From NCBI GenBank assembly GCA_017451645.1, contig JAFTNZ010000012.1:1-64000 (forward strand): DNA of 64,000 bases, read 5' to 3'. Both the position numbers and the translations under genes were made by a program. Below, piece by piece: positions 58,219 through 64,000 of the stretch; the first letter of the stretch is position 1; every line of letters starts with the position of its first letter. The notes beneath the pieces were generated by a model. It had not been told where the DNA came from, ran no database searches, and saw only the letters and a list, made by a program, of their open reading frames with translations. This DNA is from Bacteroidaceae bacterium. Its GTDB lineage: Bacteria > Bacteroidota > Bacteroidia > Bacteroidales > Bacteroidaceae.

Positions 58219-58396
58219 AATCGGATGTTTTTTTGACGTTAATAATAGAGAATTATTGTCCACATCGTAACTTGACCACCGTGGCATCCCTGCTCGGTTG
58301 GTGCAGTGGTTACACTGCTCGTGATGTTTTCGGTGCCAAAGGTACGGATTTATTTTGAAAACCCTGTTATGAATCTGCAAAAAACAACGGATATAT

Positions 58397-58427
58397 TTTG
58401 TGTTCCAATGGGTTTATGGTAACTTTG
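58397..58427 (+). promoter_or_regulatory. Promoter of the lipoprotein-YbjQ operon
   Basis: TTTG (58397-58400) and TAACTTTG (58420-58427), exactly 19 bp apart, are full matches to the Bacteroides -33/-7 elements, 42 bp before the probable start. Confidence 0.65.
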
Positions 58428-58469
58428 TGGGCGGAATGTAAATATACATAAATGTGTAATAAGTCTTTA

Positions 58470-59543
58470 ATGAAAAGGAAAATAGAATATAGATACGTTA
58501 TACTTCTTATTTTTGTAATGAATGCTATTTCATGTAATAAGAATGTGCAAATATTTTATTCCATTGATCAAATAACAGGTGATACAATTGTGAGTTATGT
58601 TTGTTCTGTAGCGGATGAACAAACGGCTTTTTCCTCATCTGCAAAGATTGTAGTAATGGATAGTATAGTCGATAAAGATGATATTTGTAAAGTTCTCTCT
58701 AATAGCAATATATTTCGTTTATTTGAATTTAATAGTGAAGTATTAGATTTGGAATTCAAATTGTATAATCATAAAGGTTGTTTTACAAACTATATACTAT
58801 ACAATGATAGCAATTATTACCTAGAAGGAAGAGTATATGTAAGTCCGATAAAAATTTCTGAAACGGATTATGATTATTATATCTCAAGTTTACAACTATG
58901 GGAAAATGAATATGAGAAAATAAAAAGGCAAAGCAAACAGGAAGCAGAAGAACTTCAAATGAAATATATAAAGGATTCATTGGAAATCGTATTACGTGAT
59001 TCTGTTTCTAAAGAGTTTGCTGCGAAAAAGGTCAAATTGTCTTTTATGGGATATAAATTAGGTGGTCCTTTTTATAATTCAGGTGCTCCTAATATTGCAA
59101 CAATTATTTCTAGTCAAAAAATCTTAGATGAAAATATTGATGATGTGAAAATTTCTCATTATAATAATATTATATATGAGATCAGAGTCTTTTTAAACGG
59201 ATATACGGAAAAATATGGTATACCTATTTATACATATGATGCAATTCTGGAGCTTTATCGAAGAAAGTATGGAAATAATTATGGTGGATGTAAATGGGCT
59301 TTTCAGAACTCATCTATTACAGTTGATTCTATAAACGAAGATTTTTTTGATGTTAAGAAATTGACGGATTTTCGTTCTGTAAAAAGTAGAAAAAGTAGAA
59401 TTAAACAAATTGTTATTACTTATTTTGATTATGATGCATATTCTATTGTGGATGAAATGCGAAAAAAAGACGAGCTCTTATTAAAGGAAAAAATAAAAGA
59501 AGAAAATAAAAGAAAATATCAAATACTAATAGATAATATTTAA
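58470..59543 (+). CDS. AT-rich-island lipoprotein of unknown function
   Basis: 357 aa from 58470 (an ATG six codons earlier, 58452, is an alternative). The start gives a short basic N-terminus, a hydrophobic core and 'MNAISCNKN', a plausible lipobox with Cys22. The body has beta-rich and mixed segments with no recognised domain; the last about 30 residues are a highly charged helix. The gene is very AT-rich (many AAA, ATA, TTT codons) unlike the left 58 kb. Its stop is one base from the start of the YbjQ/SHOCT gene, so the two are co-translated. Function unknown. Confidence 0.7.
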   Translation: MKRKIEYRYVILLIFVMNAISCNKNVQIFYSIDQITGDTIVSYVCSVADEQTAFSSSAKIVVMDSIVDKDDICKVLSNSNIFRLFEFNSEVLDLEFKLYNHKGCFTNYILYNDSNYYLEGRVYVSPIKISETDYDYYISSLQLWENEYEKIKRQSKQEAEELQMKYIKDSLEIVLRDSVSKEFAAKKVKLSFMGYKLGGPFYNSGAPNIATIISSQKILDENIDDVKISHYNNIIYEIRVFLNGYTEKYGIPIYTYDAILELYRRKYGNNYGGCKWAFQNSSITVDSINEDFFDVKKLTDFRSVKSRKSRIKQIVITYFDYDAYSIVDEMRKKDELLLKEKIKEENKRKYQILIDNI

Positions 59544-59544
59544 T

Positions 59545-60294
59545 ATGATAATTACCACTACTTCAAATATTGAAAATTATAATATAGAACGTTATATTGG
59601 ACTTGTTAATGCTAGTCAAGTTGTAGGCGCTAATTTTTTCTCAGATTTAAAAGCTTCTCTTAGTGATTTCTTTGGAGGAACATCTGGTGCATATAGAGAA
59701 GAATTGGAAAAACTCTATGAAAAGATAACGGATGTAATTAAAAAGGATGCGGAGTCTAAAGGAGCCAACGCAGTAATAGGATATCAAATAGATTTTGATG
59801 AAATTTCAGGACAAAACAAAAGCTTGTTTATGGTTACTGCGATAGGAACTGCAGTAGTTGTTTCCGTTGATAGATATGAAGTATATAAGAAACTTCATGA
59901 ATTAAAAGTTTATTTAGATGATGGTTTGTTAACAGAGGAAGAATATAAGCGAGAGGAAAAACGAATAAAAGCATCTATTTGTAATTTTATAGAATCTGAA
60001 AGTAAAGAATTGAAGCGTAAAGAAGAAGAGAAAATATGTATTCAAGAGCAACTTCGAGAAACTATAAAAAGGAAAGAAGAAGAGGAAAATAATAAAATGG
60101 CGGTTTTGTCGGTTGAGAAATCTAGTATCAAAAAGTTAAATGATTTCGTCGTAGGGGAAATAATTGAAATTGTGGACTCTGAAGAATATGTTTGTATAGA
60201 CTGTTTTACTCAAGATGGTAGAATTTTGTGTAAGATGAACAATGAATACAAATTGTTTTCTTTTGAAGAAGTATCTAAAGTAAATATAGAATAA
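59545..60294 (+). CDS. YbjQ/UPF0145-like domain protein with SHOCT-type segment
   Basis: 249 aa. The N-terminal about 110 residues fit the YbjQ (UPF0145) fold: 'TTTSNIENYNIERYIGLVNA', then a helix 'YEKITDVIKKDAESKGANAVIGYQ' and 'MVTAIGTAVVV'. A short SHOCT-like segment follows ('LKVYLDDGLLTEEEYKREEKRI', about 123-144), then a charged coiled coil and a small C-terminal beta domain. YbjQ proteins are pentameric and often envelope- or metal-associated, SHOCT segments are oligomerisation modules; no biochemical role is established. Coupled to the upstream lipoprotein gene. Confidence 0.75.
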   Translation: MIITTTSNIENYNIERYIGLVNASQVVGANFFSDLKASLSDFFGGTSGAYREELEKLYEKITDVIKKDAESKGANAVIGYQIDFDEISGQNKSLFMVTAIGTAVVVSVDRYEVYKKLHELKVYLDDGLLTEEEYKREEKRIKASICNFIESESKELKRKEEEKICIQEQLRETIKRKEEEENNKMAVLSVEKSSIKKLNDFVVGEIIEIVDSEEYVCIDCFTQDGRILCKMNNEYKLFSFEEVSKVNIE

Positions 60295-60682
60295 GATTGG
60301 ATAGATGTTGAATTGTAGAAAAAAATTAAAATCTTGTAAATATGAGGAAAGAGAAAAATGTAAAAAATAGAATCGTATTATCAAGAGTACATAAGAAATA
60401 ATTCTGACTCTATGCTTAATATGAATACAAATAAGTTGATGTAAAAAGTGTTAAAAGGTTCTGGCGTAAAATGTAAAGAATTTGAAAGGTAGTGCTCATT
60501 CAATAGGGAATACATAGATTCTCTTCAGTTGAAGTTTAAAACAATTGTAGATAAAATATTCTGTATTTGGTAAGATCAATGAGATAGAAAAATACATTAA
60601 TACGGGAAGTTGGACAAACTTTTGCAAACCTTGTTTTGTAAGGTTTTTAAGGGGGAATTGTTCATAAAATAAAAATTGAAGT
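60295..60682. other. AT-rich intergenic region before the HEPN-TIR pair
   Basis: 388 bp without a supported gene or a full TAnnTTTG promoter. One 7-bp hairpin, AAACCTT/AAGGTTT (60626-60646), is followed by TTAAGGGGG and lies 37 bp before the HEPN gene; it could be a weak terminator or a leader hairpin. Confidence 0.45.
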
Positions 60683-62617
60683 ATGGATGAGAATATTTTT
60701 GATAACGAAAAAGGACAAATTAAGGAATCCATTCGGTATTGGAAGAAATATTGGAATCATTATGCAAATCAATTATGCAGTTCAAATGATTACAATATTA
60801 CTATAGATAGTCCTCATTTATTAATTGATAATATCATTTCAGAGATAGAATATAATGATTTAAAGAATAAAGAGAATAGAACGTTGTTTAAAAAACAACT
60901 TGGTAAATGGCTAAAAAATGAGAATGTGTTTTCTTCTTTATTTGGTAAGAAAGTGAAATTATTATTGGAAAGATTTGATGACTCTTCTTGTATACAGTAT
61001 TTGTTACAGATTTGTAGACAAATAAAAGATGAATTAATTGAAGGTAAATATTTAGACGCTTTATTAAATCATTTAGCTGTTGTTATTGATGAATCAATAT
61101 TGTTAAATTATAAAAACAAGGATGAAATTAGCAAATATACAGACTTGGTTATTGCTGAATTTATAGTTAATGGGATTGTTGCAGAAGATTTGACGGGAAT
61201 TATAAGAGATATTGAAGCTCTTGATTTTGCGGATTTTAATCCCAATGATTATAAAAATGAAGAAGAATACTATAAATCTGTAAATGAATATTTTAAGAAT
61301 AAAACTATATATCAAGAACTCGATGTTGTCCGGAAATATTATAAGATAAACCCTAAACAATGTTTTGTTTTAGTCAGACTTGAGGGTATTAAAGGAGAAA
61401 TAGATATTTATATTGATGATATTAATATTTATTCTCCATATATAAAGCAATATATCGTTGAAAGTAAGTGCTTTTGTGATATTGAGAAAATATCAGATGA
61501 AAGGAAATTTGTAAATGTAGCTATTCCAGTTGAACACAGAATGGTGTATTCATCATATGCGTATGCTATAAATAGATTGGAATCAATTCTAGATATTTTA
61601 GAGTTGACATATAATAATTCTAAACCTATTAAATATGACAAGCATAGGTTGTGTCTCATAGATGAAGAGGGATATGTCCAAGCTGGCTATGTTTCAATTG
61701 ATGAATTAGAATATGATGAAAATGATTATATAGTTTCTGAAGCATCTGCATCAGAAGTACACAAATCCCAAAAGAGTATTTGGGATTATGAGGCACATAG
61801 AGATTATTTATTGTCCTTGGATATTTCGGAAAAGAAAGATGATTTTGAATTAATAGAGAAACGTATCAAAACATTAAAGAACTCAACAAAACTTTCAAGA
61901 GCAGCACATTGGTATCAAAAGGGGAAAAATTCAGAATCGTTAGAAGATAAACTCCTTTTTCATTGGATTGCTATTGAAAGTCTTTTAAAATCATCAGAAA
62001 AGACTTACCACAATATAATTATAGGAGATAAAAACGTCTCTTTACTTAAAGTAATTCAGAGAATTAGTTCTTCAGTTATGCTCAATAAGTTCTTTGAAGA
62101 GTATTATGTTGATATTTATAATTTATTGTTTATCCTTACTAAACATTGTGACAACTATCTGAAAATATCGATTGACTTACAGAATCGAATATTTCCACAG
62201 AATGATGAAGATAAGGATTATAAAAAATATCTTTGTAACTTTTTAAATAGTTTAGAAAAGTTAGAAGAAAACATAAATAATGAATTATATAAAAGTAAAT
62301 TAAGAGAGCTTAATCTGTTTTATCAAAATGATAAAGGAATAAGAGCGAAAGAACAAGAATTTAGTAATGATATTTTGTTAATTTATAGATTGAGGAATTT
62401 AATTGCTCATAATGCTGTTTTTCCTAAATATGTGATTAAGTATTATGCGAATAAAATAGAGATAATAAGTGGAAGTATTATTGAGTTATTAATTGAAAAG
62501 TCTCAAAATACAAATTGGAACTTAGATGATATACTTATTGATGTATCGATAAGGCATGAAGACTTTAAGTCTAATATAAATGAAAAGATAAAAGCGTTAA
62601 AGCTGATTACGCATTAA
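60683..62617 (+). CDS. HEPN-domain protein, candidate RNase effector
   Basis: 644 aa, no signal peptide. The C-terminal third is helical and fits an ApeA-like HEPN domain: 'AAHWYQKGKNSESLEDKLLF' then 'WIAIESLLKS' (about residues 405-435) and, at its end, the Rx4H motif Arg571-Asn572-Leu-Ile-Ala-His576 in 'YRLRNLIAHN', the typical active site of HEPN ribonucleases. The N-terminal about 400 residues are novel to me: acidic, mixed helix/strand, with no recognised nucleotide- or DNA-binding motif; they may sense infection or inhibit the RNase. AT-rich. Its stop is 53 bp before the TIR gene on the same strand. Confidence 0.7.
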   Translation: MDENIFDNEKGQIKESIRYWKKYWNHYANQLCSSNDYNITIDSPHLLIDNIISEIEYNDLKNKENRTLFKKQLGKWLKNENVFSSLFGKKVKLLLERFDDSSCIQYLLQICRQIKDELIEGKYLDALLNHLAVVIDESILLNYKNKDEISKYTDLVIAEFIVNGIVAEDLTGIIRDIEALDFADFNPNDYKNEEEYYKSVNEYFKNKTIYQELDVVRKYYKINPKQCFVLVRLEGIKGEIDIYIDDINIYSPYIKQYIVESKCFCDIEKISDERKFVNVAIPVEHRMVYSSYAYAINRLESILDILELTYNNSKPIKYDKHRLCLIDEEGYVQAGYVSIDELEYDENDYIVSEASASEVHKSQKSIWDYEAHRDYLLSLDISEKKDDFELIEKRIKTLKNSTKLSRAAHWYQKGKNSESLEDKLLFHWIAIESLLKSSEKTYHNIIIGDKNVSLLKVIQRISSSVMLNKFFEEYYVDIYNLLFILTKHCDNYLKISIDLQNRIFPQNDEDKDYKKYLCNFLNSLEKLEENINNELYKSKLRELNLFYQNDKGIRAKEQEFSNDILLIYRLRNLIAHNAVFPKYVIKYYANKIEIISGSIIELLIEKSQNTNWNLDDILIDVSIRHEDFKSNINEKIKALKLITH

Positions 62618-62670
62618 TTAAAAGTAAAATTAGGTTACCAGCAAATAATCTAAACGAAGTATAATTAATA

Positions 62671-63417
62671 ATGGATTTGAATAGAATGAACGAAATTAAA
62701 AACATATTAAACTCATGTATGTCTATTCTAAAAATAGTAAGAATTGATTACAACTCTTCAATTGGTCAAAGAACTAGAAGTTTAGTATCTGAAATAAATA
62801 GACTAATACCTCTTTTAGAAAAAGAGGAACCATATATAACTAACATATTAAAGGTGTCTTTAATGAATCTATCACCAAATGGATATAATATTAATGCTTA
62901 TGTTTTTGGCGATATTCGTACTGCGATAAATATTTTAAATAATAAATATAACAACGAGCAATCTAACAACTCGCTAAAAGACATCAAAACTTCAAATCAG
63001 AATAGTCGAAAGAGGATTTTTATAAGCCACTCGTCAAAGGATAAATATATAGTAGAGAAGTTTGTTGATCATATTTTAATGTTAGGAATTGGACTATCTG
63101 CAGAAGATGTATTTTGTACTTCAATTGAAGATATGGCTATAAAAAATGGTGAAGACATAAGAAACCATATTCATACAAACATTCAAAATGTAGAATTTTC
63201 CATATTGCTGATTTCTAAGCATTACAAGAATAGTGAGATTTGCATTAATGAAATGGGGGCAGTTTGGGCTTATAATAACAATGTTCGTCTATATTTGCTT
63301 CCTGATGTGGATTTTAATGAGATAGGTTGGCTTTGTGACACGAAGAAAGCTGATAATTTGTTTGATTCAATAGTCCTTGATGCGTTAAAAATGGAATTTC
63401 AACATTCTATTCATTGA
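62671..63417 (+). CDS. TIR-domain protein, candidate NADase effector/signal generator
   Basis: 248 aa. Residues 1-100 are helical and unrecognised. Residues about 114-245 form a bacterial TIR domain: beta-A 'RIFISHSSKDKYIVEKFV', the BB-loop region 'VFCTSIEDMAIKNGEDIRNH', 'FSILLISKHYKNSEICINE' with Glu194 in 'CINEMGAVW' at the expected catalytic position, and 'VRLYLLPDVDF'. Bacterial TIR domains of this kind cleave NAD+ or make cyclic ADP-ribose signals in defence systems. It follows the HEPN gene by 53 bp. No ThsA, SIR2, pVip or Argonaute partner lies in the window, so it is not a recognisable Thoeris or SPARTA locus. Confidence 0.8.
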   Translation: MDLNRMNEIKNILNSCMSILKIVRIDYNSSIGQRTRSLVSEINRLIPLLEKEEPYITNILKVSLMNLSPNGYNINAYVFGDIRTAINILNNKYNNEQSNNSLKDIKTSNQNSRKRIFISHSSKDKYIVEKFVDHILMLGIGLSAEDVFCTSIEDMAIKNGEDIRNHIHTNIQNVEFSILLISKHYKNSEICINEMGAVWAYNNNVRLYLLPDVDFNEIGWLCDTKKADNLFDSIVLDALKMEFQHSIH

Positions 63418-63479
63418 AAGATAAAGGTGTAACATGGAGTCGGCAAAGAGAAATTTTCTTAAATTGTCAAAAATGATAG

Positions 63480-63617
63480 CATACAATATTTATATTACCC
63501 ATAAACATCACTGAACTATTAGAAAAGAACCGTATAGAATTCAATTGTATAGAGTATAAGCGTGGTTGGAATCCTACAGCTTTCTATTATTATAAGCAAA
63601 AGAACGAGAACCTATAA
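63480..63617 (+). pseudogene. Remnant of an AlbA_2/COG2865-type gene (1)
   Basis: Between two in-frame stops the translation reads 'NITELLEKNRIEFNCIEYKR' then 'GWNP' (from 63504), matching the N-terminus of AlbA_2-domain ATP-binding proteins (typical '...NRIEYKRGWNP...'), with an internal partial duplication of 'RIEF/CIEY'. It has no start codon, stops after 38 codons and then drifts into unrelated 'FYYYKQKNENL'. Clearly a broken fragment; the parental protein's role is unknown. Confidence 0.55.
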
Positions 63618-63624
63618 TTGAATT

Positions 63625-63913
63625 ATGAACGAAAACAATAACATTATCATATATCAGAGTGAGGATGGAAAGACCCACATTGAAGTGAAGTTGGAAGAGA
63701 ATACGGTATGGCTTACGCAGCAACAAATTGCTGATCTGTATCAAACTTATAGAAGCAATATAACAGAACACTTTTACATATATATGAAGAAGGAGAGTTG
63801 GATGAAAAAGCAACTTGTCGGAAATTCCGACAGGTTCGACAAGATGGTAATAGGCAAGTAGAGTATGAACTTACTTTCTATAATCTTGATGCGATTATTT
63901 CTGTTGGCTATCC
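63625..63913 (+). pseudogene. RhuM-family gene remnant with 2-bp frameshift
   Basis: The frame at 63625 encodes the RhuM N-terminus ('IIYQSEDGKTHIEVKLEENT', 'VWLTQQQIADLYQT'). Homology then continues in another frame from 63783 ('YEEGELDEKATCRKFRQVRQ', 'YNLDAIISVGYP'). Removing one AT from the (AT)4 tract at about 63778-63785 would restore the full reading frame up to 'ISVGYP', where the match ends abruptly. RhuM-type genes are usually found on genomic islands and next to restriction or toxin loci; their function is not settled. This copy is inactive as it stands. Confidence 0.7.
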
Positions 63914-63979
63914 AAGGAAAGTTGGCGTGACGAATATCTGAAATGGATATGTGGGTTTCACAATGTAATTGCGTATTAA
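63914..63979 (+). pseudogene. Remnant of an AlbA_2/COG2865-type gene (2)
   Basis: In a different frame, directly after the RhuM break, the translation reads 'KESWRDEYLKWICGF' (63914-63958), the hallmark start of AlbA_2 transcriptional-regulator/ATPase-like proteins, followed by unrelated 'HNVIAY' and a stop. It has no start of its own; a deletion seems to have fused RhuM to it. The last 21 bases of the window show no feature. Confidence 0.6.
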
Positions 63980-64000
63980 AGGCAGATTGATAGAATAAAA

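Follow-up and report, generated by a model that had tools for sequence, protein, structure and literature searches.

Do a HEPN gene and a TIR gene that stand next to each other form one defence system or two? The question is raised by the end of a 64,000-nucleotide stretch of DNA (hereafter the window; positions 1 to 64,000 of contig JAFTNZ010000012.1) from a Bacteroidaceae bacterium whose assembly, GCA_017451645.1, is 2.5 Mb in size and 73% complete. There, a gene for a 644-aa protein with a HEPN motif (60683..62617, + strand) is followed, after a 53-bp gap (62618..62670), by a gene for a 248-aa protein with a TIR domain (62671..63417, + strand). An earlier interpretation made from the letters alone, here called the sequence-only reading, had found both frames and had proposed that they make up an undescribed two-gene defence system; the frames are present and open, with the lengths and spacing it gave. 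We consider it probable that the two genes encode two abortive-infection effectors of known kinds, lying side by side in one mobile defence island, and not the parts of one new system. This view is built on sequence relationships, conserved catalytic residues and the lack of a conserved partner in the few loci seen, and from these we infer the enzyme activities, the triggers, the independence of the two genes and their function in defence.

The HEPN protein and its likeness to ApeA

The 644-aa protein carries the motif RNLIAH at residues 571-576, which the sequence-only reading had correctly recognised as HEPN-type. No Pfam, NCBIfam or PADLOC family exceeds its cut-off on this protein, and only the Pfam family MauJ matches it at all (E 0.061, 14.6 bits). 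Apart from the protein itself, relatives were found in 2 of 393 genomes of the same order, at 45% and 32% identity. None was accepted in 296 genomes of the phylum, the family profile found none in 395 genomes of the class, and a pattern scan of an 84,980-species collection, which needs short conserved patterns and can let distant relatives escape, returned the same two. Nor were relatives found in plasmids and phages (tblastn) or in viral contigs (protein and alignment scans), and a first contig scan with the single sequence yielded nothing useful. Two candidates were discarded: a match in genome G263 (E 1.4e-4, 21 bits), whose frame reads by eye, with no family search made, as histidine-kinase-like, and Dps-type structures matched by the single sequence (E ~0.1), which disappeared with the family profile.

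The HEPN residues of the protein are W428, E432, R571, N572 and H576. Both relatives conserve W428, E432, R571 and H576, so that the R571...H576 pair is found in all three family members, and no part of the family is better conserved than the stretch around the motif: identity to the relative in genome G417 is 73.3% over residues 556-600 versus 29.5% over residues 441-555.

When a profile of the three proteins was searched against the Protein Data Bank (PDB) with E up to 10, the sole chain returned was Ec4ApeA (9hxm), at E 0.67 and in three colinear weak segments, the last of which aligns yrlRNliaHNA with YLLRNTIVHNA. A set of ten ApeA sequences was therefore compared with the window family, consisting of a plasmid gene (L027) whose 609-aa product is identical to Ec4ApeA residues 1-609 and nine relatives, all collected from plasmids by tblastn with pieces of Ec4ApeA, pieces of Ec2ApeA and the gene of plasmid locus L031; plasmid locus L033 was left out of the profile because its gene is in fragments. 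A viral-contig scan with an Ec4ApeA piece gave nothing useful. In hhalign, the window family matched the first five ApeA sequences at 75.6% (E 2.4e-5) and all ten at 97.9% (E 5.9e-13, score 107.8), the latter over 533 columns that begin close to the N-terminus and extend through the HEPN motif, at 16% identity. Sixty column-shuffled ApeA profiles, the like-for-like control for the score of 107.8, reached no more than 25.1 (mean 17.0), and a reversed profile reached 20.8. Even the window sequence alone matched the ApeA profile (92.9%, E 3.8e-7). Four residues invariant in 10/10 ApeA sequences, W377, E381, R508 and H513, have W428, E432, R571 and H576 as their counterparts in the window protein.

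The 644-aa protein is thus best read, from these alignments, as belonging to a divergent branch, in Bacteroidales, of the HEPN defence protein ApeA. It has in common with ApeA (Ec4ApeA, 9hxm; Ec1, Ec2 and Ec3ApeA being 9hxn, 9hxb/9hxi and 9hxj) a colinear alignment over most of the length, a C-terminal HEPN domain with RNxxxH, a W-x-x-x-E segment and its size, 644 aa compared with 609 aa for the Ec4ApeA gene and 619 residues for the PDB chain; it differs in being very diverged, in short inserts around residues 336-368 and in the TIR gene directly after it. The sequence-only reading had taken the N-terminal ~400 residues for a novel sensing or regulatory part. We reject a novel N-terminal sensor because this region aligns with ApeA, which suggests that the supposedly novel half is of ApeA type. 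It is the E. coli ApeA family that is matched, and not HEPN proteins generally, since a profile built from five other HEPN_Apea proteins of Bacteroidota (those above cut-off among six Pfam matches in that phylum) scores just 14.9 against the window family; against the ApeA set it scores 20.6. HEPN_Apea (PF18739) and the ApeA/BMEI1217 family of PMC3710099 share with the window protein the HEPN motif and the ApeA name, but the five Bacteroidota members do not align with the window family and hardly with the Ec4ApeA set. The name may span more than one N-terminal type, because ApeA-NTD1 is given as mostly beta strands in a table of PMC3710099. Kinship is accordingly claimed with the E. coli ApeA proteins of the PDB only.

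If so, ApeA extends to a rare, far-diverged Bacteroidales branch missed by the models of PADLOC 2023 and NCBIfam 2026; otherwise ApeA was met here on plasmids, mostly enterobacterial, plasmids alone having been searched for ApeA relatives. A search of 149 genomes of the class with the PADLOC ApeA family gave 0 matches, but its control was silent too. As a separate observation, the Ec4ApeA-type gene, its own product annotated as a hypothetical protein, adjoins an anti-phage gene annotated ppl at three of the ten intact plasmid loci with ApeA (L027, L028 and L036, all on enterobacterial plasmids).

The TIR protein and its likeness to SpbK

The intact TIR domain that had been reported for the 248-aa protein is borne out by Pfam TIR_2 (1.8e-9, 38.5 bits, cut-off 28). 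It spans residues ~107-240, with the catalytic-type glutamate at position 194, within NEMG; the N-terminal ~106 residues have no family assignment. The best named relative is SpbK of Bacillus subtilis, both by the PADLOC spbK model (107.7 bits, 1.9e-31) and by structure (9phb, 2.7e-19; PMC12847820), and in both proteins a C-terminal TIR domain follows a short N-terminal region. In SpbK numbering (9phb chain minus 24, chain E216 being E192 of the paper), E194 corresponds to the catalytic-type E192, S121/S122 to S121/S122, T150 to T148 and I157 to I155, and N193/G196/W199 correspond to the interstrand-interface residues N191/G194/W197. The window protein therefore keeps the catalytic glutamate and most of the named active-site and interstrand-interface residues; Y188 of SpbK is replaced by I190. 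We name the protein SpbK-like, and not SpbK, because the similarity of the N-termini is not significant. Plasmid searches with the SpbK N-terminal piece and with the N-terminus of the window TIR protein produced nothing useful.

ThsB, the TIR protein of Thoeris, has the domain in common with the window protein, but its PADLOC match (best 1.6e-9) is far weaker than that of spbK. A search for ThsA-type STALD proteins in the window's genome found none; with a silent control and a genome that is 73% complete, this null is uninformative.

Neighbours of the relatives

The sequence-only reading had itself named rarely adjacent homologues as a finding that would count against it. Three ApeA-like loci, a small number, show three different neighbours: a TIR gene in the window, a Fic gene, and a retron-like cluster. 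In G417 (locus L016, G417:C66, 7713-11041), only 2 bp separate the ApeA-like gene from the 457-aa Fic-family gene downstream of it (Pfam Fic 1.1e-18), which also matches PADLOC PDC-S04 and SoFic and so is another effector-type neighbour. The retron-like cluster lies in G676 (locus L017). No TIR relative occurs in either of these two loci within 20-kb stretches.

Relatives of the TIR protein turned up at E up to 1e-8 in 5 more of 395 genomes and in 4 more of 198, and, with E allowed up to 1e-5, in 20 plasmid records and 3 phage records; viral-contig scans with the TIR protein or alignments were of no use. Fourteen loci were inspected, namely all 9 genomic ones, 5 of the 20 plasmid ones and 0 of the 3 phage ones. 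Several end at contig edges, and one, L050 (3.5 kb), has hardly any sequence ahead of its TIR gene. A frame like the window HEPN protein or like ApeA is found in 0/14 (best E 1.3 and 0.15). When frames of 150 residues or more were scanned for RNx(I/V/L/F)-H-type motifs, two loci were positive: in L047 an Abi-like frame, so read by eye, carries the motif ~2 kb from the TIR gene, and the second, L048, is considered below. Within these small samples, the proposed pair recurs beside none of the two HEPN relatives and at none of the 14 TIR-relative loci, and the claim of an undescribed two-gene system is not supported. Because the neighbours of the HEPN relatives differ and no ApeA-like gene accompanies the TIR relatives, the two genes are likely to be independent. 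Apart from this, one of the loci, L038 on a Priestia megaterium plasmid, holds three TIR-domain genes and a macro-domain gene in ~5 kb.

How two separate effectors might act

The mechanisms of ApeA and SpbK may be transferred to the window proteins by analogy. ApeA is named as a HEPN-domain defence in excerpts of PMC7699616 and PMC10952713. By this analogy, the N-terminal and middle regions of the 644-aa protein would keep the enzyme inactive and sense infection, after which the C-terminal HEPN dimer would cleave cellular RNA and arrest growth. If the mechanism is ApeA-like, the trigger could be deoxydinucleotides released by DNA degradation during infection, a trigger of ApeA named in the title of a 2026 preprint cited in PMC13405049. 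Deoxydinucleotide nucleases occur near defence genes according to passages of PMC11706625, which mention neither ApeA nor HEPN.

The 248-aa protein, for its part, may be an SpbK-like TIR NADase. SpbK is described in excerpts of PMC12847820 as activated when its N-terminal domain binds the phage portal protein, which clusters the TIR domains. By analogy, the N-terminus of the window protein would bind a phage component, and this binding would cluster TIR domains head to tail and lead to NAD+ depletion. At this locus it could be tested cheaply whether an ApeA-like and an SpbK-like effector that adjoin are mere neighbours or layered.

Alternative readings

Several observations pull away from two unlinked effectors of these kinds. 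By methods that use one sequence the ApeA match is slight, with BLASTP of the window protein against Ec4ApeA giving E 0.004 over 32 residues and hmmsearch with the ApeA profile giving 0.0011 (best single domain 0.13; search space 100,000), the same profile reaching 1.6e-7 on the G417 relative. Single ApeA sequences score 28.6-49.4 against the window family (3.7-78.9%), next to 21.2 for the best of 28 decoys, which are single ORFs of at least 300 aa from loci L011-L015 and are comparable with single ApeA sequences, not with the score of 107.8. The PADLOC ApeA model misses the window protein even at E 10; it likewise misses the gene of L031, a 38% relative of Ec4ApeA. On the TIR side, D158 of the SpbK BB loop is replaced by G160, the first 110 residues align colinearly with SpbK at a level that is not significant (hhalign E 0.054; a 5.7-bit segment), and the N-terminus alone does not retrieve SpbK from the PDB. 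The arrangement of the genes also fits co-transcription, as they lie on the same strand, 53 bp apart, and no terminator-like hairpin was detected in 60250-63700 (0.5 expected by chance). Finally, in L048 (G422:C22, 6862-8829) a 395-aa protein with the motif RNSIVH is encoded 6 bp upstream of a TIR relative.

The last two points speak for the foremost alternative, a functional two-gene module in which one protein senses and the other is the effector, or in which the HEPN RNase is licensed by the TIR product or by the loss of NAD+; the TIR protein would then be the constant part, with an exchangeable HEPN family. The L048 TIR protein is the relative that matches furthest into the N-terminus (residues 37-239; 36% over a MAFFT alignment). 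Against this, L048 is the only one of 14 loci in which a HEPN-motif gene lies directly upstream of the TIR gene, and its setting is a restriction-modification-like cluster with an Eco57I/type IIG-like methylase, a helicase and a NERD gene. Its 395-aa protein, which falls short of the MauJ cut-off (24.7 of 28 bits) and matches DzbB weakly, shows no detectable kinship with the window HEPN protein (hhalign score 13.7), and the two TIR proteins, when only their N-termini are compared, show no significant likeness (E 0.052). TIR genes are also missing from both other ApeA-like loci. ApeA is not known to need a partner gene. SpbK is a one-protein defence according to PMC12847820. We hold the module to be unlikely. 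In the small samples seen, homologues of the two window genes are rarely neighbours, and the HEPN-motif gene of L048 is a different one; this single recurrence of the HEPN-then-TIR order is not enough to assert a module, yet it weighs too heavily to be set aside. Among the titles listed by literature searches on HEPN and TIR two-gene systems and on deoxydinucleotides with HEPN, none names such a pair, in a coverage from which subscription journals and preprints are mostly missing, so that the lack of a title does not prove absence.

A more specific form, which we regard as slightly less likely again, is that an ApeA-like HEPN RNase and a TIR NADase act jointly, for example with a sensor of DNA degradation firing both RNA cleavage and NAD+ depletion. 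Its HEPN subunit would be exchangeable between families, as is hinted by the second pair of a HEPN-motif gene and a TIR gene in L048.

It is improbable that a larger system, for example a Thoeris-like or retron-like one, uses the HEPN and TIR proteins as its effectors while its sensor lies elsewhere. The idea draws on the weaker ThsB matches of the TIR protein and on locus L017 (G676:C1, 3504-10954), where the ApeA-like gene is preceded by an overlapping or abutting gene for a 340-aa protein, in a cluster with an ATPase (PDC-M62A), an HNH protein (PDC-M62B) and a retron-like reverse transcriptase (RT; RT_VI best, 2.5e-71). The 340-aa protein ends in a HEPN-type RNKIVH motif and has no family match in Pfam at E 0.1 or in PADLOC at E 0.01; like the 395-aa protein of L048, it does not align significantly with the window HEPN family. 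Against a larger system, the ORFs listed at 52-64 kb and those of the following 20 kb, read by eye with no family search made, include no gene for an RT, an ATPase or an HNH protein.

That one or both genes are non-functional remnants in a decaying island is very improbable, for although the RhuM-type and other neighbouring frames at 63.4-64 kb are broken, both genes are full length with their catalytic residues kept, and the HEPN motif stretch is the best conserved part of its family.

The surrounding island

The two genes lie in an AT-rich island (58250..64000, edges approximate), as the sequence-only reading had described. In 500-base windows its GC content is 0.23-0.34 from ~58.25 to 64.0 kb, compared with 0.477 for bases 1-58000, and it returns to 0.49 by 64.25 kb; the right edge is at ~64.2 kb of the same contig, just beyond the window. 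The two-gene stretch itself has values of 26% and 29%. Directly downstream, broken frames occupy 63422..64000 on the + strand. Their identification as RhuM and AlbA_2 debris is upheld in its first part, one broken piece matching Pfam RhuM at 1e-9, but not in its second, as Pfam gives no match to the AlbA_2-like piece even with E up to 1, and the name AlbA_2 is unconfirmed.

Upstream in the same island, a gene for a 249-aa protein (59545..60294, + strand) encodes an N-terminal YbjQ domain and a charged C-terminal half; nothing ties the YbjQ protein to the HEPN and TIR pair. Within 58452-60294 it is preceded by a gene for a 363-aa protein without a family, and its start lies one base past the stop of that gene.

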